Of a DNA stretch of 64,000 nt, positions 7,761-15,573 are shown one piece after another. The stretch is from Streptomyces benahoarensis. GTDB taxonomy: Bacteria; Actinomycetota; Actinomycetes; Streptomycetales; Streptomycetaceae. The DNA is taken from positions 1 through 64,000 of the forward strand of contig NZ_VKJP01000001.1 in the NCBI RefSeq assembly GCF_007280575.1, given 5' to 3'. Under the pieces are notes generated by a model that worked only from the letters and a program-made list of their open reading frames with translations, searched no databases and had not been told where the DNA came from. A program made the translations under genes and the position numbers. Numbering within the stretch: the first letter of the stretch is position 1; each line of letters begins with the position of its first letter.

Positions 7761-8453
7761 TCAGTAGGGATGGGGCGGCAGGTTCGGGTTTGCCTGTTGG
7801 ACACGTGAGATGTCTCCGTACCTGTGCCAGATGTAGTTGATGGCCGCCGCGATGTTTGCCAGTGGGTCGTAGATCAGATGGGAGGTACCCTCTTCGTGGT
7901 TCTCGGCGAATGTCACGGCAGTCACCTGTGCGTAACCGCGTGAGCAGTTGAAATGCGCCCCGTCCGACTGGACGGCTCCCGTTGCGTTGACGTCGTGCAG
8001 GTTCACCGCGTTCGAGTTGAAGGACGACTCCCGGAACATAAGAGTGAGCAGGTTCGCGTGATTGCTGACCCCGGTGATCCAGCTCGACGGGGCGCCGGTC
8101 ATGGTGCATACCTGTTCCGCGAATCCTCTCGCTGTAGCCTCGTTATTGGGCATAGCAGAGTTTTTCGAGAACCGGACCGAACTCGTCGAAATGGCGCCCG
8201 GCTGCCGGCAATCCACCCCAAACCCCGATTTACGGCCGAGCCTCGTCAGGGAAGAGCAGCCGGGGAACCCGTCGGCATCCGAGCCAGTGAGGCCCAGTGA
8301 CCTCTGCCAGGCAGCATATGCGGACCTGGTCTGTCCCTCATAAATTCCCGTGACTCCCGCTGGAAGGCTGAATCCCGCAGCTACCAAGGCACTTTGGACG
8401 GATTTCACGTCGTTGTTGCGTTTGCCGAAACGGACGTTGGAAAGGAAAACCAC
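7761..8453 (-). CDS. Peptidoglycan-binding, lysozyme-like (transglycosylase) protein
   Basis: 230 aa. Residues about 8-75 form a PG-binding repeat (KSVQSALVAAGF, then SAYAAWQRSLG and SDADGFPG). The C-terminal half is lysozyme-like: RESSFNSNAV supplies a candidate catalytic Glu, and GYAQVTAVTFAENH followed by DPLANIAAAINYI matches the goose-lysozyme/SLT pattern. It should bind and cut cell-wall glycan. There is no signal peptide, so export would need a holin, lysis or a non-classical route, as in phage endolysins. GTG 8453 was chosen because GGAGG sits just upstream; an ATG at 8591 would add 46 residues unlike the family. GC content is lower than in neighbouring genes. Confidence 0.75.
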   Translation of the reverse strand: MVFLSNVRFGKRNNDVKSVQSALVAAGFSLPAGVTGIYEGQTRSAYAAWQRSLGLTGSDADGFPGCSSLTRLGRKSGFGVDCRQPGAISTSSVRFSKNSAMPNNEATARGFAEQVCTMTGAPSSWITGVSNHANLLTLMFRESSFNSNAVNLHDVNATGAVQSDGAHFNCSRGYAQVTAVTFAENHEEGTSHLIYDPLANIAAAINYIWHRYGDISRVQQANPNLPPHPY

Positions 8454-8620
8454 CTTGCCTCCTACCCCTTGCGACCTGCGGTGGGGCAGCACCGACCACG
8501 GCGCACACCACTGGTGATCCACCACGACCAGGTACCGGCCGACCCCACGCAAATGGAGTGCATCCCAGGGATGCCGCGGGTTCGTCAGCATCCCTGGGAT
8601 ACCGCTGGTTTGTCGTCGCG

Positions 8621-9469
8621 TCAGACGAGGTGAGGCACGTGCAGCCTTTCCCAGCTGGACTTACCCGGAACCCCGTCGGCGTCGCTGCCCGAGAAGCCGA
8701 GCTTGCCCTGCCAGACCGCGTAGGATTCCACGTCTCCCGATTCCCATACGTCGGTCTCGTCACCGGGTGGGTACCGGTTGCATCCTTCAGCGATGAGCCG
8801 ATTGTGCATGGCCGCGATGACCGGCGACTTCTGGCCGGTGTGGAAGAAGGCCGGACCGGGGAACGGCTCGGTGGCCCGCGGCTGCGTCACGAAGACAGGC
8901 CATGATCCGGGATCGACGTGGTCGTTCTCCGGCACGTGGGCGTGCGCGTACCAGCCGCCCTCGGACTCCCACTTACTCTCGGAGCGATGCGCGGTGAAAT
9001 CGGTGGGCCGACCCATGGGCCACGTGTTCGGCACACCCCAGGAGTGAACCCATGCGTTGAGTTCTTCCCATCCCTTGCACGGGGTATCGGCCAGATTGGC
9101 GTACACCTTGCCGTCGACACGACAGTGCGGGAAGAACAGCGCCTCGATCTGGATGACGACCTTGCCCGCGCGATTGGTGTGGGTGCCGCCAGCCAAGTCG
9201 CGTAGGGCCTTGCTCCGGGACGTGGCGGGGAAGAACTGGGCGAAGGCCCCGGTGAAGGGGTTCCACAGGAGATGCGGGGCCATCCCTATCCCGCTGTGCG
9301 TGAAGAAGCTCTTCAGATTGGCGAATGGCACCAAGTCCTGCGGAGCCGCCGCGCTGGCGATGCGGTCCGCCGTGATGTGCGCGATCGCTTTCGCCGGGAA
9401 CGCCGGGTCACAAGGAGCATGGTCACCGACATCTGCGTTGATGGCCTGAGGCATCCATATATCGGGCAT
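8621..9469 (-). CDS. Endolysin-like protein with C-terminal peptidoglycan-binding repeat
   Basis: 282 aa. The N-terminal domain (about residues 10-160) contains HITADRIAS, then SGIGMAPHLLWNPFTG and FFPATSRSKALR..GG.HTNR, as in actinobacterial and phage amidase-like cell-wall hydrolases. The C-terminal repeat (FFHTGQKSPVIAAMHNRLIAEG, then SYAVWQGKLGFSGSDADG) is a PG-binding module. The start is ATG 9469 behind AGGAGGAA. No signal peptide was seen. The tail shares the SYAxWQxxLG...SDADGxPG pattern with the next gene, 167 bp downstream, so the two are a paralogous or recombined pair. Probably prophage- or plasmid-derived. Confidence 0.75.
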   Translation of the reverse strand: MPDIWMPQAINADVGDHAPCDPAFPAKAIAHITADRIASAAAPQDLVPFANLKSFFTHSGIGMAPHLLWNPFTGAFAQFFPATSRSKALRDLAGGTHTNRAGKVVIQIEALFFPHCRVDGKVYANLADTPCKGWEELNAWVHSWGVPNTWPMGRPTDFTAHRSESKWESEGGWYAHAHVPENDHVDPGSWPVFVTQPRATEPFPGPAFFHTGQKSPVIAAMHNRLIAEGCNRYPPGDETDVWESGDVESYAVWQGKLGFSGSDADGVPGKSSWERLHVPHLV

Positions 9470-10066
9470 GGTGAAACTTCCTCCTGCCTGCCGTCGAGCC
9501 CAGGAGTTGAAGCGGTGAGGGCGTACCGGCTGATAACTCCAAAGCCTCATACCGGGGTTCCGGTAGTCGTCGGTACAGAGGTACCTCTCTGGGCATGTGC
9601 AATGCTTGATTCGATTCTCTTACGGGGTGCGTGGTTCAGCCACTGGTGGGGCAGGCCGGAAGATCGATCGGGGGCCATTCGTCCCGTCCGGCGGGCAGAG
9701 ACACGCACCTCAGCCGCTCGGGCAGGCCGATTACCCCGCTGGTCCGCTCAATTGACGCACCCGGGCATACACCCGTCGGCAGAGCACTTCGCGCAGAGCA
9801 GGTTCGTGGGGCTCCCCCGCCTGAGGGCATCGTCCGCCGAGTGGCGGCACCGGGGGCACCCAAGCTGCATCATCGTTGCCGACCCGGTTGATGCAGACGG
9901 GCCGGCAGTGGCTCCGTCCCGGCCCGGCGCTGCGGCTGCACTACTCCATTCCGCCCGCCTGGGCAGGCCATCAGGGTGGTACTGAGGCCGGCGCATGGAC
10001 CTCGCTGCCGGTGCCGGGGACCTCTTCCGTATGCATACGCCCCTCCCCCAAGACGGGGAACGCCGA
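9470..10066. other. Intergenic region, mostly empty
   Basis: About 600 bases between divergent genes. It must hold promoters for the endolysin-like gene and the protease. Apart from the small zinc-ribbon candidate at 9748-9873, I see no homology, hairpin or repeat that I would call. Confidence 0.5.
9748..9873 (-). CDS. Candidate 41-aa zinc-ribbon protein
   Basis: A short reading frame starting ATGATG. It contains CPRC at residues 5-8 and a CAKC...CMPGC cluster near the end, enough cysteines for one structural zinc. Third codon positions are strongly G/C, consistent with coding. No convincing ribosome-binding site precedes it and the protein is too short for a family call. It may be real or chance. 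Confidence 0.3.
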   Translation of the reverse strand: MMQLGCPRCRHSADDALRRGSPTNLLCAKCSADGCMPGCVN

Positions 10067-11134
10067 GTGCCGAAGCCGGGCAATTGCTTCTGCACCATTG
10101 TGCCGCCGTTCGTCCTTGAGAGACTCGCCGAGTCGGACGACCCCAAGGTGAGCGAGTCCGCCCGCGCCACCCTCGAGGCTGACGCCGAGGCCGCGTTCCG
10201 GGCCTTCCGGATCGAATCGCCCGGCCTCATGGCGCCGGCCGCTCCAGCAGCCGAGCCCCGTCTGGAGCGGACGATCTTCGACGCCCACCACGGCCTCGGG
10301 TTGCCCGGCGATGTGGTCAGGCCCGACGGGGCCGATCCGGTCGCGGACGGCTGCGTCAACCGCGCCTACGACGCCCTCGGCCTCACCTTCAACCTCTACA
10401 AGGAGGCGTACGGCCGAAACTCGGTCGACGGCAACAACATGCCGCTGGACGCCAGCGTCCACTACCGCCGCAGCTACAACAACGCGTTCTGGGACGGCGA
10501 ACGTATGGTCTTCGGCGACGGTGACGGACAGGTCTTCAACGACTTCACCGTGGCCGTCGATATTCCCGCCCACGAAATGACCCACGCGGTCACGCAATTC
10601 ACCGCGGGGCTCGTGTATCAGGATCAGTCGGGCGCCCTCAACGAGTCGATCTCCGATGTATTCGGCTCGCTGGCCAAGCAGTTCGCCCGACGCCAGACCG
10701 CCGAACAGGCGGACTGGCTGATCGGTGCCGGAATCTTCACCCCCACGGTGCAGGCGCAGGCCCTGCGGTCGTTGAAGTCTCCGGGCACGGCCTTCAACGA
10801 CCGCCGGCTGGGCGGTAAGGACCCCCAACCGGACAACATGGCCGCATTCGTCGAGACGAGCCAAGATGACGGCGGAGTCCACACGAACTCGGGCATCCCC
10901 AACCACGCCTTCTACCTTGTCGCGACCGGCATCGGCGGCTTCGCCTGGGAGAAGGCCGGCCAGATCTGGTACGACACGATCACCTCCGGCGAACTGGATC
11001 CGAACGCCACTTTCCAGGATTTCGCCCGAGCGACGCTCGCCGCCGCGGCAAAGCGCTACGGCAAGGGACTGGAGTACGAGGCGGTCCTCAAGGCGTGGTT
11101 CGAGGTGGGTGTGAGCGGGAACAGCAATGGCTGA
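10067..11134 (+). CDS. Protealysin-like M4 zinc metalloprotease
   Basis: Thermolysin-fold endopeptidase of about 355 aa. The zinc site is complete: HEMTH, then the third ligand in GALNESISD, with the downstream HTNSGIPNHAFY substrate/His motif. There is no signal peptide. The N-terminus has the short cytoplasmic-type propeptide with CxIVPPFVLERLAE, as in protealysin-like enzymes and unlike the long prepro regions of secreted thermolysins. GTG 10067 is preferred because GGGGA lies 7 bases upstream and it gives the short N-terminus typical of the subfamily; ATG 10031 and ATG 9995 are in-frame alternatives. The downstream gene encodes an emfourin-like inhibitor, which supports the subtype. It is likely an intracellular or lysis-released protease. 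Confidence 0.9.
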   Translation: MPKPGNCFCTIVPPFVLERLAESDDPKVSESARATLEADAEAAFRAFRIESPGLMAPAAPAAEPRLERTIFDAHHGLGLPGDVVRPDGADPVADGCVNRAYDALGLTFNLYKEAYGRNSVDGNNMPLDASVHYRRSYNNAFWDGERMVFGDGDGQVFNDFTVAVDIPAHEMTHAVTQFTAGLVYQDQSGALNESISDVFGSLAKQFARRQTAEQADWLIGAGIFTPTVQAQALRSLKSPGTAFNDRRLGGKDPQPDNMAAFVETSQDDGGVHTNSGIPNHAFYLVATGIGGFAWEKAGQIWYDTITSGELDPNATFQDFARATLAAAAKRYGKGLEYEAVLKAWFEVGVSGNSNG

Positions 11135-11179: not shown

Positions 11180-11446
11180 ATGCGGATCCGGGTGACCAGG
11201 AGCGGCGGCCTGGCCGGGTTGACACGCCAGGTCGAGCTGGACACCTCCGGCCGGCCTGACGCAGCCGAATGGGAACGCCTCGCGCTCGCCGCCATCGCCG
11301 ACAGCCTGGCCGAGTCCACCCCTGGTGTGCCGGACGGCTTCCGGTACACCGTGACCGTGGACGACCGCACCGTCGAATTCGCCGATCCGGGCCTCAGCGA
11401 AGCCCAGGACGAACTGGTCGACCGTGTGCTTCGGGAAGGCACATAG
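11180..11446 (+). CDS. Emfourin-like inhibitor of the M4 protease
   Basis: 88-aa acidic protein with no signal sequence, 45 bp after the protease gene on the same strand. Sequence blocks RVTRSGGLAGLTRQVELDT at the start, YTVTVDD in the middle and DELVDRVL at the end resemble emfourin (M4in), the small cytoplasmic inhibitor encoded beside protealysin in Serratia and found beside similar proteases in actinobacteria. Pairing would keep the protease silent inside the cell. The ribosome-binding site is weak, so translation may be coupled to the upstream gene. The call rests on motif resemblance plus gene order. Confidence 0.7.
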   Translation: MRIRVTRSGGLAGLTRQVELDTSGRPDAAEWERLALAAIADSLAESTPGVPDGFRYTVTVDDRTVEFADPGLSEAQDELVDRVLREGT

Positions 11447-11473
11447 ACGCCGCCTGCCGGGCCTCCTCACCTT

Positions 11474-11616
11474 CCCATGAGCGTCGGCGCACGGCGCATT
11501 CCTCGCGACGCATCCGGGTCGGGCACGGCATCGCGCGCCTGAAGAACTGGCAAGCCCTGGCCCGTCACCTCGGCCAGCTCCCGAAGCCACGGTGGAAGTG
11601 GTTCTTGGAGGTGTAG
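11474..11616 (+). mobile_element. IS5-type transposase C-terminal scar
   Basis: The frame reads SSRRIRVGHGIARLKNWQALARHLGQ before a stop. This matches the last catalytic-Glu region of IS5/IS1182-like DDE transposases (RIRVEHGIA.LK.WRALAR). The first two catalytic Asp blocks are absent and no terminal inverted repeats were found, so it is a decayed end. It lies directly upstream of the lasso-peptide genes and may mark how they arrived. Confidence 0.6.
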
Positions 11617-11624
11617 CAGTCCGG

Positions 11625-11652
11625 TTGCGGGGCATTCGGCGGAGAGTAGCCT
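11625..11652 (+). promoter_or_regulatory. Possible promoter of the lasso operon
   Basis: TTGCGG (11625-11630) and TAGCCT (11647-11652) are spaced 16 bp apart, 35 bp before the precursor start. A seven-codon frame (11660-11683) ends three bases before the precursor ATG and covers its ribosome-binding site, so translation of one may influence the other. Based on consensus resemblance only. Confidence 0.25.
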
Positions 11653-11686
11653 GGAGTTGATGTTCTGCCAGTTCTGGAGGTAGGCG

Positions 11687-11803
11687 ATGTTTCTCCGATT
11701 GCTGCGGCGCCGTAAGCCGCATCGGCTCGTCCTTCTCGGTAACGGCCGTCTGATCCGCGGCTTCAGCGGCGGGCTCTACGACGGTCACGGATACCAGTCC
11801 TGA
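11687..11803 (+). CDS. Lasso peptide precursor (candidate)
   Basis: 38-aa reading frame with a good ribosome-binding site (TGGAGG, 7 bases before ATG) and a spacing of 33 bp to the B-protein gene. The N-terminal part is very basic (four Arg and one Lys within residues 4-10), followed by a short hydrophobic stretch and then Gly-rich sequence. The only acidic residue is Asp32. A lasso ring joins a residue-1 amine to an Asp/Glu side chain at position 7-9, so Gly25 with Asp32 is the only fit: core GFSGGLYDGHGYQS, an eight-residue ring and a six-residue tail. The residue two before the cut is Ile23, where lasso leaders usually have Thr, and no YxxP leader motif is visible. The precursor role is inferred from context and this geometry. 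Confidence 0.65.
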   Translation: MFLRLLRRRKPHRLVLLGNGRLIRGFSGGLYDGHGYQS

Positions 11804-11836
11804 AACCGTTCACGGTGGAATCCTGGAGGATATGCG

Positions 11837-12460
11837 GTGGCAGAGGACAGTGATGCCCTGGCAGCCATGGCAAGGGCCCTCTCACCGCATTGCCGTGTCA
11901 CCCGGATGTCCGACGGGGCACTGATCGCGGACTGGAAGCGGACGCGTTTTCTCGGATTGGCGACGACGGAAGTCCAGAAATTCACTTCCGGAATCCCTGA
12001 GGAACGCGCCGAAATTATCTCCGGTCTTATGCGTGCCGGGTGCGCGGCGGGCCGCCGGAAGAAATATGCGGACGTCGGCGTCGGGCTCCGGTTGGGTGGA
12101 GTGCACCTGCTGATCCGGACCCTTGGATTCGGGCGCGTCCTGCGGCTGCTGCCCTTGGCCGCCCCGGATTATGCCCGTGCGGACCTCCCCTCCGCGGAGG
12201 AGGTCGGACGGCTGAAGCGAGCAGTGCAGTCACACAGCAGCAGAAGCTGGTTCGTCAACGGCGACTGCAAGTCCGAGGCGGTGACGGCCTTCGTCCTGCT
12301 GCGGCGGCGTGGCCTGAAAGCCGTACTCCACGTGGGTGTGCGTGAACACCCGTTCGCCCTGCACGCGTGGACAGCCTCGGGCGGTGTGTGCATCCCCGAC
12401 GCCGATCCGCGAGGGCACGCCTTCACGCCGGTGCTCTCGTTCGGCTGCGGAGGACAGTGA
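11837..12460 (+). CDS. Lasso peptide B protein, RRE fused to leader peptidase
   Basis: 207 aa. Residues about 19-68 (VTRMSDGALIADWKRTRFLGL...) look like a PqqD/RRE precursor-binding domain. Residues about 120-207 are the transglutaminase-like peptidase with Cys144 (NGDCKSEA), His176 (LHAW) and Asp188 or Asp190 as the likely triad. It should recognise the precursor and cut off the leader. GTG 11837 follows TGGAGG at good distance. Actinobacterial lasso clusters usually split RRE (B1) and peptidase (B2) into two genes; this single 207-aa protein is laid out like the McjB type. Base composition is less GC-rich than in flanking genes. It could instead be a plain B2 whose N-terminus is not an RRE. 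Confidence 0.85.
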   Translation: MAEDSDALAAMARALSPHCRVTRMSDGALIADWKRTRFLGLATTEVQKFTSGIPEERAEIISGLMRAGCAAGRRKKYADVGVGLRLGGVHLLIRTLGFGRVLRLLPLAAPDYARADLPSAEEVGRLKRAVQSHSSRSWFVNGDCKSEAVTAFVLLRRRGLKAVLHVGVREHPFALHAWTASGGVCIPDADPRGHAFTPVLSFGCGGQ

Positions 12461-12461
12461 C

Positions 12462-14279
12462 ATGGATGCGCTCCGCCTCGAATGGGCCGGGGGCGCACCG
12501 AGGCTCCTGACGAGCGAAGCCATGGCGCGTCAGGGACTCGTGACGACGGTCTCCTCGCGGGCCGGCACCGCGGCCGTCGTCGGCTGGGTCGGCTCGGCCC
12601 GTGACCGGGCGGCGGGCGCGCGCGGCCTCCTCGACTCCGGCGGGCAGGGGGCCGCCCCGCCTGTGCCGGCCGGCGACTACGCGGCTGTTGTGGTGTACCG
12701 CGACCGCATCCTTCTGACGCGCGACGAGCAGGCACGCATCCCGCTGTTCTTCAGGGAGTCCGGTGGCCGCGTGAACGCCGTGAGCACCTCGGTCCGCTGC
12801 CTGGGGAGCGTCGCAGAGCTGGACCCCCGCTACTTCTGCCGCTACCTCACCGGGAACCTGGCGCAACCGCACGCGGACCTCACCCCTTTCGCCGGGGTGC
12901 ACCGCGTCCTCGGCGGCGAGGTGGTCGAGCTGTCGCACACCGGGCAGATGCGCCGTCGTACGCTGCGACGCGCCCGTCGGGCCACTGACCCGCCCGAGCC
13001 GACTGCCGGCGGCTCCTGCCTGGCTGAGGCCGCGCAGGAGTTGCGTCTCGCGCTGGAGAACGCTGTCGGACGCCGCATGGGCACGACGACGGCATGCCAT
13101 GTCTCGGGCGGCACCGACTCCACCAGCGTCGCGCTGCTCGCCGCACGCCTGCTGGCCACGGAACGGGGCGGCGCCGGGGAGGACCTGGTCCTGCTCGCCG
13201 GGCGATTCTCCCGCGGGGAGCTGGCCGCGGAGCGGTCGTACCTCGACGTCGCGATGGAGGAGATCTGCCGTCACACCCCCGCGGCCCGCCCCGTGATCGT
13301 CGATGCCGACGACGTGGCCGACTTCGACGACTTCCAGCACCACGCGGGAGACGCCGACGAGCCTCATGCGCACGCCTTCCGTGCCCCGTTCTGGGCCAGG
13401 CTGCACGCCGCGGTCGCGGAACTGGGCTGTGACACGCTCCTGACCGGCTGCGGGGCCGATCCGATCGTGGACGCCAACCCGTTCCACCTGCACAGGCTGG
13501 CCCGCACGGGGCAGCTCCGGCAGATGACCGAGCAGGCACGTGCCTGGGCCGCGGGAAGCGAGCGGGGCTTGCGGGACATCGTCCGCACCTACGTGGTGCA
13601 GCCGACCGCGCCGCTGGCAGCCGAACGGATCACCGCGCTCCTCCGCGGCGGAACCGTTCTCGGCGGCCTCGGCACCTTCAACCGCCCCAGATGGCTGCGA
13701 TCCGGATTCGCGCGCGCTCACGGCTATCGGGATGCGGGCATCGCGGAGAGCCGGTTCGTGTTCGGGCGCAAGCCGGAACGGTCGCTCTACGACGCCGCCA
13801 ATTACGCCGCCGCTCCCGACCTGGTGTCCTGGCAGCGCGCACGACGGGACGGGTTCTTCCTCTCGCACCCCTTCCTCGACCCGGAGGTCGTCGCCACGAT
13901 GAGCCGCCTGCCCGCCGCAGCCACGTTCCAGCCGGGCCGTCCGAAGGCCGTTCTCCGTGAGGCCATGGCGGATCTCCTCCCGGCCCCGATCCACGGCCGG
14001 GCGGTCAAGGTGCCCTTCAACGACCTCTACTCCCGCGGCCTGCGGATACACGGCGACGAACTCATCGCCCTGTGCCGCTCCGCCCGACATCCGCTGATCG
14101 CGGAGATGTTCGACGTCGAGACGCTGTGCCGGGCCGTGCGGGAGGCCCAGCTCGGCCTGGGGGACTCGTACTCCTGGGATCGCGTGAACAGGTCGCTCGC
14201 CCTGGTGGCTTGGCTGGAGCGACTGGACCGGCATTCCGGCGCGCCCGACGCGACGGTGCCCGTCACCGCTGGCTCTTGA
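12462..14279 (+). CDS. Lasso peptide cyclase (asparagine-synthetase-like)
   Basis: 605 aa, starting one base after the stop of the B gene with AGGA upstream. An N-terminal glutaminase-like fold (residues 1-200) lacks the Cys2 nucleophile of true asparagine synthetases, as expected for lasso macrolactam synthetases. The PPi-loop SGGTDS lies at residues 215-220 and binds ATP to adenylate the acidic side chain of the core, after which the freed N-terminus closes the ring. The rest (LTGCGADPIVD, then HPFLDPEVVATMSRLP and GRPKAVLREAM) matches the synthetase half. It completes an A-B-C set; no exporter gene of the ABC type is adjacent. Confidence 0.9.
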   Translation: MDALRLEWAGGAPRLLTSEAMARQGLVTTVSSRAGTAAVVGWVGSARDRAAGARGLLDSGGQGAAPPVPAGDYAAVVVYRDRILLTRDEQARIPLFFRESGGRVNAVSTSVRCLGSVAELDPRYFCRYLTGNLAQPHADLTPFAGVHRVLGGEVVELSHTGQMRRRTLRRARRATDPPEPTAGGSCLAEAAQELRLALENAVGRRMGTTTACHVSGGTDSTSVALLAARLLATERGGAGEDLVLLAGRFSRGELAAERSYLDVAMEEICRHTPAARPVIVDADDVADFDDFQHHAGDADEPHAHAFRAPFWARLHAAVAELGCDTLLTGCGADPIVDANPFHLHRLARTGQLRQMTEQARAWAAGSERGLRDIVRTYVVQPTAPLAAERITALLRGGTVLGGLGTFNRPRWLRSGFARAHGYRDAGIAESRFVFGRKPERSLYDAANYAAAPDLVSWQRARRDGFFLSHPFLDPEVVATMSRLPAAATFQPGRPKAVLREAMADLLPAPIHGRAVKVPFNDLYSRGLRIHGDELIALCRSARHPLIAEMFDVETLCRAVREAQLGLGDSYSWDRVNRSLALVAWLERLDRHSGAPDATVPVTAGS

Positions 14280-15573
14280 TGTCCCACAGGGTCCGCTCGA
14301 CCGGGCCGGTGAACAGGTCGACGAGGCCGTACCGGCCCACCAGTTCGCGTGCTTGCTCAGGGGTGGCGATGCTGTCTTCCTCGCCTTTCCGCCCAATGGC
14401 TGTCTGCACGCTCGCGCCGTGCGTGCCGAACCTCCAGTAGACGGTGACGAACCGCGGATCCCTTGTGCGTTCGTCGATCGCATTGTTCTCGTGCACCCTG
14501 GCACGGTAGATGAGAGAGTCCAGACCGCTCTTCTGTTGCTCCTTCACCCATCCGGGGACTTTTTCCTTACCCCAGGAGTACGCCACGAAGTCGAGCGGTG
14601 GCTGCAGCACCAGCCGGTCCTTGCGCGCGAGGCTCGCGGTGGCATAGAACGCCACCTGGTCGTACGACGTGTCCTTGGGCAGTTGCACCACCACTTTTGT
14701 GGCGAAGGTGTCTTTCGACTCAACCCATTGTCCATAGGGCATCCACGGTTGTGCTTCGACCAACTGCCCGGGCTGGTGAATCTCCCGGCGGGAGAGCGGG
14801 TTCACTTCCGAGGACTTGCGCCACTGCTCGGCATCGGTTCGCCACTGCTGGCGAAGTCGGTCCTCCCGACTCAGCGGAACCTTTTTCCCCATGACGTGGA
14901 ACTCGGTGCCGAGCACGTAGAAACCCACGTCGCCGTTGTTCTGGAGGGTGATGTCGACCGGTACGGCGAATGCCTTGCGGTCCTTGCTCAGCACCGCCTT
15001 TCCCATGGACAACGTGATGAGCGGCCTGGTTTGTCGCTGGAACGGCTGGTAGAGGTCCTGGTAGCCGAAATTGGCGATCGCGATGACCGAGGAGACGCTC
15101 AGCGCGGCGGCCACCCGCTTCGGAGCGGGGATCACGACCGACGTCCGCCACACCGCGAAGACAGCGCACGCCGAACCCGCCGTGAGCGCGCCGAACAGCG
15201 CCGGGTAGGCGGCGGAATCGCCGTTCTTGACGGTCTGCACCAGGAGCATGGCATTGGTCAGCAAGGCCGCGAACGTGCCGATCAGCGCAACCAGACCGGA
15301 GTAGGGGAAGGTCTGCCGGATCCAGTGGTCCAGGACCGCGGCGGTGCCCACGAGCGTGGTGAACGAGACCACGAGAAGGACGGCACCGGTGATGCGACCG
15401 GCGAAGGTCAGATCATGGACGAAGTCCTCCAGGCCGAACCGAGCCAGCAGCAGAGTGGTCATGAGGAGGACCAGCACGATCACTGCCAGGGCCACCCGCG
15501 ACTGCCAGGTTCCCAGCGAGGGCCCTCGCATTTTCGGGTGTGCGCGGGAGTCAGCCCTGGGGGGAGTTTGCAC
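14263..15573 (-). CDS. Membrane protein of unknown function
   Basis: 436 aa. Five hydrophobic helices lie in the first 180 residues (from VALAVIVLVLLMTTLLL to VAAALSVSSVIAIANF), followed by a roughly 250-residue soluble, probably extracellular, domain with GDVGFYVLGTEFHVMG and a Trp-rich segment. GTG 15573 has a near-perfect AGGAGGTGA eight bases upstream and beats ATG 15531. The gene converges on the lasso cyclase and overlaps its 3' end by 17 bp. It has no ABC or permease signature. A role in lasso immunity is conceivable from position only. Confidence 0.75.
   Translation of the reverse strand: MQTPPRADSRAHPKMRGPSLGTWQSRVALAVIVLVLLMTTLLLARFGLEDFVHDLTFAGRITGAVLLVVSFTTLVGTAAVLDHWIRQTFPYSGLVALIGTFAALLTNAMLLVQTVKNGDSAAYPALFGALTAGSACAVFAVWRTSVVIPAPKRVAAALSVSSVIAIANFGYQDLYQPFQRQTRPLITLSMGKAVLSKDRKAFAVPVDITLQNNGDVGFYVLGTEFHVMGKKVPLSREDRLRQQWRTDAEQWRKSSEVNPLSRREIHQPGQLVEAQPWMPYGQWVESKDTFATKVVVQLPKDTSYDQVAFYATASLARKDRLVLQPPLDFVAYSWGKEKVPGWVKEQQKSGLDSLIYRARVHENNAIDERTRDPRFVTVYWRFGTHGASVQTAIGRKGEEDSIATPEQARELVGRYGLVDLFTGPVERTLWDIKSQR

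Follow-up and report, generated by a model that had tools for sequence, protein, structure and literature searches.

The window, that is, the whole 64,000-nucleotide stretch of Streptomyces benahoarensis DNA analysed here, carries a genuine lasso-type gene set, confirmed where a reading of the sequence alone (hereafter the sequence-only reading) had positioned it, with a precursor gene (A) followed by genes for two lasso-family enzymes, a protease (B) and a cyclase (C). That reading had counted only three genes. A fourth, D, encodes a membrane protein and is an obligate part of the cassette. The features are as follows.

11625..11652, + strand: promoter-like element TTGCGG-N16-TAGCCT 5' of A, from the aligned upstream regions of 28 loci
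11676..11680, + strand: ribosome-binding site of A, GGAGG, 6 nt before the ATG, kept in most of the 28 loci
11687..11803, + strand: A, precursor peptide of 38 aa, MFLRLLRRRKPHRLVLLGNGRLIR / GFSGGLYDGHGYQS (the stroke marks the predicted cleavage site), from the ORF list, presence in 28/28 loci and purifying selection
11759..11800, + strand: predicted core GFSGGLYDGHGYQS, 14 residues, placed from the invariant Gly25 and Asp32
11837..12460, + strand: B, single-chain lasso protease, 207 aa, GTG start, from family matches
12462..14279, + strand: C, asparagine-synthetase-like lasso cyclase, 605 aa, from family matches and a tree
14263..15573, - strand: D, 436-aa membrane protein convergent with C, GTG start, from homologues and a model

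A and B are separated by 33 nt and B and C by 1 nt, while the last 17 nt of C are shared with D, which lies in convergent orientation. Besides the window, 27 named genomes have their genes in the identical A-B-C order (25 Streptomyces, one 'Actinobacteria bacterium' and one Peterkaempfera), and counts over 28 loci refer to the loci of these relatives plus the window. Among 393 sampled Streptomyces genomes, A and B occur in the same 18 (~5%), and a profile search with B in 395 genomes of the class found its own genome and one weak partial match only. The conserved unit holds no ABC exporter in the relatives' loci compared, in line with the earlier observation that the locus lacks one. The gene set is apparently undescribed, as no description of the peptide was found in the open-access literature, though a published name may exist elsewhere. 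What sets the cassette apart is its non-canonical leader, its separate cyclase lineage and its obligate, unclassified membrane partner; the sequence-only reading had overlooked D itself, how little the peptide varies and that the cyclase has a cyanobacterial affinity.

The precursor stands before B in every one of the 28 loci, and the good ribosome-binding site originally ascribed to it is borne out. When the upstream regions are aligned, TTGCG and TAGC(C)T recur at the same spacing 5' of A with few exceptions; a scan of the locus for sigma-70 consensus promoters and terminators returned no matches. The dN/dS of A is ~0.3, leader and core alike, with similar values for B and C and ordinary synonymous change, and besides Met1 twelve residues are invariant in 28/28 loci (R4, G18, L22, I23, R24, G25, S27, G28, D32, G33, H34 and G35). 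Because of its constant presence before B, this dN/dS and the twelve invariant residues, A is no chance ORF. Pfam and NCBIfam scans of A gave no matches, and the annotation of a plasmid copy of the cassette (Streptomyces sp. HUAS 14-6, below) has no gene at its place; the precursor is therefore missed by genome annotation.

Since Gly25 and Asp32 are invariant (28/28) and spaced for an exact 8-residue ring, we infer cleavage before Gly25 and a ring of 8 residues, Gly1-Asp8, leaving a putative 6-residue tail, GHGYQS. With cleavage at this predicted site, A has the Gly at the core start and the Asp at positions 7-9 that are looked for in lasso precursors. The core, GFSGG-x-YDGHGYQS, contains no Lys and is near-fixed across the 28 loci, the exception being position 6 (precursor residue 30), which is F, L, D, M, H, Y or S and accumulates 1.39 non-synonymous versus 0.16 synonymous differences per pair. 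The leader keeps Pro11 in 27/28 loci and Gly18 in 28/28 and departs from the usual motif in having no Tyr at position 8 and Ile rather than Thr at -2 (28/28). The pattern YxxPxL...G...T(-2) is a common signature of lasso leaders and not a strict requirement, and the distance from Pro11 to -2 in A (12 residues) is the same as in canonical leaders.

B consists of an RRE-like region (residues ~14-72) and a peptidase domain (~86-202). Residues 86-202 match the NCBIfam model lasso_biosyn_B2 (NF033537; 5e-21, 75 bits against a cut-off of 33) and Pfam Transglut_core3 (2e-22), and the triad of the B2-type Cys-His-Asp leader peptidase characteristic of lasso clusters is present, with Cys144 and His176 in 26/26 sequences and Asp188 in 24/26. 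The sequence-only reading had proposed checking the 207-aa protein for PqqD/RRE and transglutaminase-like folds. The latter was recovered, whereas a Pfam scan of the N-terminus gave no PqqD match, and a comparison of the B profile with PDB sequences gave no matches. In a low-confidence model (mean pLDDT 56, N-terminal part about 60-80), the best fold match of the N-terminus is the B1/leader complex 6jx3 (58 residues, 2.5 A), at a Z of 5.1 that lies below the range where a fold match counts as secure; TbiB1, PbtF, MccB and SuiB are also among the matches. Profile comparison with lasso B1/PqqD proteins scored 27.0, against 20.9 for the best of 100 column shuffles. The N-terminus of B may be a short, divergent RRE, and one chain would then carry both functions, as the sequence-only reading had it, with the model's low confidence in mind.

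The fusion itself had been presented as unusual. Of 41 B2 loci in 81 relatives, 30 indeed encode PqqD in a gene of its own immediately 5' of B2. One locus shows a clear fusion, and in nine there is no match to PqqD, three of the nine being the present cassette; an albusnodin-type locus of Amycolatopsis, however, also encodes a single B, of 251 aa. Single-chain B is hence uncommon but not unique among relatives. At an actinobacterial locus (G047:C110:52768-53436), PqqD and B2 domains share one 275-aa open frame, a canonical-looking fused B.

C matches Asn_synthase (4e-24), carries the ATP motif SGGTDS at residue 215 and has beta-lactam synthetase as its sole solved relative by sequence. Its top NCBIfam model is the albusnodin/ikarugamycin cyclase (NF033561), below the cut-off (150 vs 300 bits). 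The glutaminase Cys2 is absent, position 2 being E, D, Q or K in 28/28 loci. A first cyclase tree gave three clades whose closest pair was undecidable, and it was therefore rebuilt with non-actinobacterial rows, so that it comprised asparagine synthetases alongside lasso cyclases of Cyanobacteriota, Bacillota, Pseudomonadota, Bacteroidota, Halobacteria and actinobacteria; it has long branches and a single cyanobacterial row, and McjB/McjC were left out. In the rebuilt tree C groups with the lasso cyclase of Nostoc (99/98), and the remaining sampled actinobacterial lasso cyclases form a separate clade without it (100/100). C is thus an AsnB-like protein that lacks the glutaminase Cys and joins lasso cyclases, in keeping with the sequence-only reading, which a grouping with metabolic asparagine synthetases would have refuted; the split from AsnB-like rows is weakly supported (75/59). 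C is not placed among the other sampled actinobacterial lasso cyclases and, judged from sequence, may belong to a lasso synthetase lineage nearer a cyanobacterial one. Given the one cyanobacterial row and the long branches, Nostoc is the nearest relative known here and no proven source of transfer.

This closest cyclase outside the cassette family (28% identity over 528 aa, 3e-55) lies on plasmid pNsp_a of Nostoc sp. ATCC 53789 (NZ_CP046704), where a lasso B adjoins it which, as in the cassette, is a single fused protein (261 aa). The gene order differs (B, a pentapeptide-repeat protein, C), an ABC transporter lies nearby, and neither a similar precursor among the small ORFs listed nor an annotated D is present. 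A possible unannotated precursor at the Nostoc lasso locus is MLKKLESVRLTDPQVKVYSQPKIYFLGSINNVQSSVQGSYIEGPNSQFWYS (L202 4344-4499). Albusnodin-family clusters resemble the cassette in being actinobacterial, in a single B of ~250 aa and in the top NCBIfam model for C. They differ in their order A-C-B-T, whereas the cassette is A-B-C with C in another clade, has no acetyltransferase in its conserved unit and has no Lys in its core; membership was rejected on the C score (150 < 300 bits), the missing conserved acetyltransferase and the Lys-free core. Canonical actinobacterial clusters, such as those of lariatin and sviceucin, have split B1/B2 proteins (PMC5067487). They share the enzyme logic of the cassette but have a separate PqqD/B1 gene, usually an exporter, a cyclase of another clade and a canonical leader. 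With no separate B1 gene and with C outside the actinobacterial cyclase clade, the cassette was not assigned to them. Proteobacterial clusters of the microcin J25 type have an intact B, as here, but a dedicated ABC exporter (McjD) and a different precursor, and stand outside the present tree.

An actinobacterial cluster without exporter had likewise been regarded as out of the ordinary. The exporter is indeed missing here, but there is a precedent, the transporter-less cluster of chaxapeptin (Lp3) from S. leeuwenhoekii, whose product is secreted without a dedicated transporter (PMC6856326). That peptide is unrelated, and the part of the source consulted mentions no D-like gene (PMC6856326).

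Lower local GC had been read as a sign of transfer. A (0.63) and B (0.665) do fall below the window (0.709), but C does not (0.726), other genes of the region are equally low, and in 27 relatives the mean is 0.691 for B and 0.698 for the loci in which it lies; GC by itself was accordingly rejected as a mark of recent transfer. The transposase scar reported upstream comes down to a possible IS remnant at 11457-11616 (+), where DDE_Tnp_4 gives E = 0.013, below the cut-off, and which shares 25 bp with one other site of the genome. The surroundings of the cassette change between relatives' loci, and annotated B, C and D lie on a 114-kb linear plasmid of Streptomyces sp. HUAS 14-6 (NZ_CP106796.1 39693-43297; L187), which together suggest that the cassette moves between sites; the changing surroundings are no sign of recent arrival in the window.

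Just upstream of the cassette lie an M4 (thermolysin/protealysin-like) metallopeptidase gene at 9995-11134 (+) and an emfourin-type inhibitor gene at 11180-11446 (+). An M4 peptidase occurs within 8 kb of the cassette in 7/27 relatives, and the plasmid has one too (L043, L044, L049, L050, L056, L058, L065 and L187). Its distance and orientation vary. Emfourin was also present in L044, L065 and L187. Peptidoglycan-binding-like proteins are encoded nearby at 7761-8591 (-) and 8621-9550 (-), as well as in L049, L050, L058 and L065.

D most likely starts at the GTG at 15573 behind the ribosome-binding site AGGAGGT, the open frame extending to 15681. Comparison with Pfam and NCBIfam gave no family at E <= 1. 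The model (pLDDT 77.6) has five helices and an Ig-like beta-sandwich; five helices with a basic N-terminus would turn the C-terminal domain outwards. A Foldseek search of solved structures matched common Ig-like beta-sandwich domains only, from which no function is transferable, the Ig-like domain being a common fold. A dN/dS estimate for D was set aside, as its rows extended upstream of the likely start.

The case for D as a member of the cassette comes from its distribution. It adjoins the cassette in 24/27 relatives' loci and is present but unlinked in the other three (S. echinatus, S. spinosus and OV450). Of the 393 Streptomyces genomes, exactly the 18 that have A and B also have a close D homologue (at least 49% identity), and the remaining 375 have none, so that no genome has D only. 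In S. echinatus, where the A-B-C locus lacks D, the gene (C6:302485-303849) faces a second precursor, A' (MFLRLLRRRRRPRGLLLLGNSRLIHGFSGASYDGHGYQS; match at C6:303926-304042, minus strand; L101 6927-7043), less than 100 nt off, and neither B nor C intervenes. A' has His instead of Arg at -1, and in place of the TTGCGG/TAGCCT element an inverted repeat, AGTAC...GTACT, stands upstream. S. hirsutus has a second intact D beside a decayed C fragment (L099 2704-3180 and 3200-5080), a decayed cassette that kept D. A Mantel comparison of the distances of C with those of D gave r = 0.73 (0/2000), a correlation to which shared ancestry contributes. Distant D relatives (24-33% identity) adjoined no B or C homologue in the loci checked; their only recurrent neighbours were peptidoglycan-binding proteins, in two loci. 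The latter, peptidoglycan-binding-like proteins directly upstream of D relatives, belong to two other genomes (L104, L105).

Taken as a whole, the reading we lean towards is that the cassette makes an 8-ring lasso peptide with D as its dedicated receptor or immunity protein. Its parts differ in strength. That A, B and C yield a lasso peptide, here of class II type, is highly probable. The RRE-like N-terminus of B would bind the leader and its Cys-His-Asp domain would cut before Gly25 (R/G), whereupon C would adenylate Asp32 and join it to the new N-terminus, closing the 8-residue ring around the tail GHGYQS; the product would have a computed monoisotopic mass of 1425.595 ([M+H]+ 1426.602). The peptide may then leave the cell by a general route with no dedicated exporter, as chaxapeptin does (PMC6856326). 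That D acts on or with the peptide is likely. That it does so specifically as a receptor or immunity protein, its outward Ig-like domain binding the mature peptide outside the cell, is put forward more tentatively, at somewhat under an even chance.

Other readings bear on either the product or D. A metabolic asparagine synthetase whose neighbours have nothing to do with it, as the NCBI label 'asparagine synthase-related' on the plasmid copy might suggest for C, is barely credible and was rejected: glutamine-hydrolysing AsnB rows of the tree alignment begin MCG, whereas Cys2 is missing from C throughout, and the A-B-C order is constant in 28 loci. Hardly more plausible is an ordinary actinobacterial three-gene lasso cluster, recently acquired; the lower GC over A and B and the faint DDE_Tnp_4 trace speak for it, but none of the other actinobacterial lasso cyclases sampled groups with C, D is obligate, and in relatives the GC of B differs little from that of its surroundings. 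The enzymes might instead make another macrolactam or an unthreaded branched cycle, to which the leader without Tyr and with Ile at -2, the deeply divergent C and the short 6-residue tail would be congenial; with a B2 match above the curated cut-off, a lasso cyclase as the neighbour of C in the tree, and invariant Gly and Asp at exact ring-8 spacing, this seems quite improbable.

D, being polytopic and obligate in a unit without ABC exporter, might export the peptide or help to do so in place of the usual ABC transporter. That is possible but unlikely, and less likely than a receptor or immunity role: D has five helices, matches neither an ATPase nor any known family of transporters, and its predicted outer domain is large, all of which argues against it, and chaxapeptin, secreted without a dedicated transporter (PMC6856326), means that no exporter is required. 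Rather less remote, yet still on the doubtful side, is an antibiotic peptide for which D provides simple immunity and nothing is signalled. Antimicrobial activity is common among lasso peptides, the clusters of antimicrobial ones typically include a protective transporter (PMC13352647), and S. hirsutus retained D where C decayed. Against this stand a core almost fixed in 28 loci and the absence of immune, non-producing D-only genomes (0/393), and for these two reasons a self-directed role fits better than an arms race; an antibiotic with immunity may nonetheless be compatible with both. The strict restriction of D to producers is no less consistent with sensing, or with a part in export/processing, than with immunity. 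A fuller version of the favoured reading, in which A and D are a conserved, possibly self-directed peptide and its cognate membrane receptor, kept together where B and C lie elsewhere and served by a cyanobacterial-near synthetase lineage, is similarly doubtful.

Antimicrobial lasso peptides are typically accompanied by a dedicated ABC exporter. The cassette adds to Streptomyces, in ~5% of genomes, a near-invariant peptide that lacks an exporter but has an obligate membrane protein of no known family, and whose cyclase lineage is absent from the other actinobacterial lasso clusters sampled. The peptide may be a conserved signal, or a weapon, that has a receptor or immunity protein of its own. 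Should D bind the peptide, lasso receptors or immunity proteins would gain a new kind, and the cassette would offer a genetically simple system in which to study the role of a conserved lasso peptide in its own producer.
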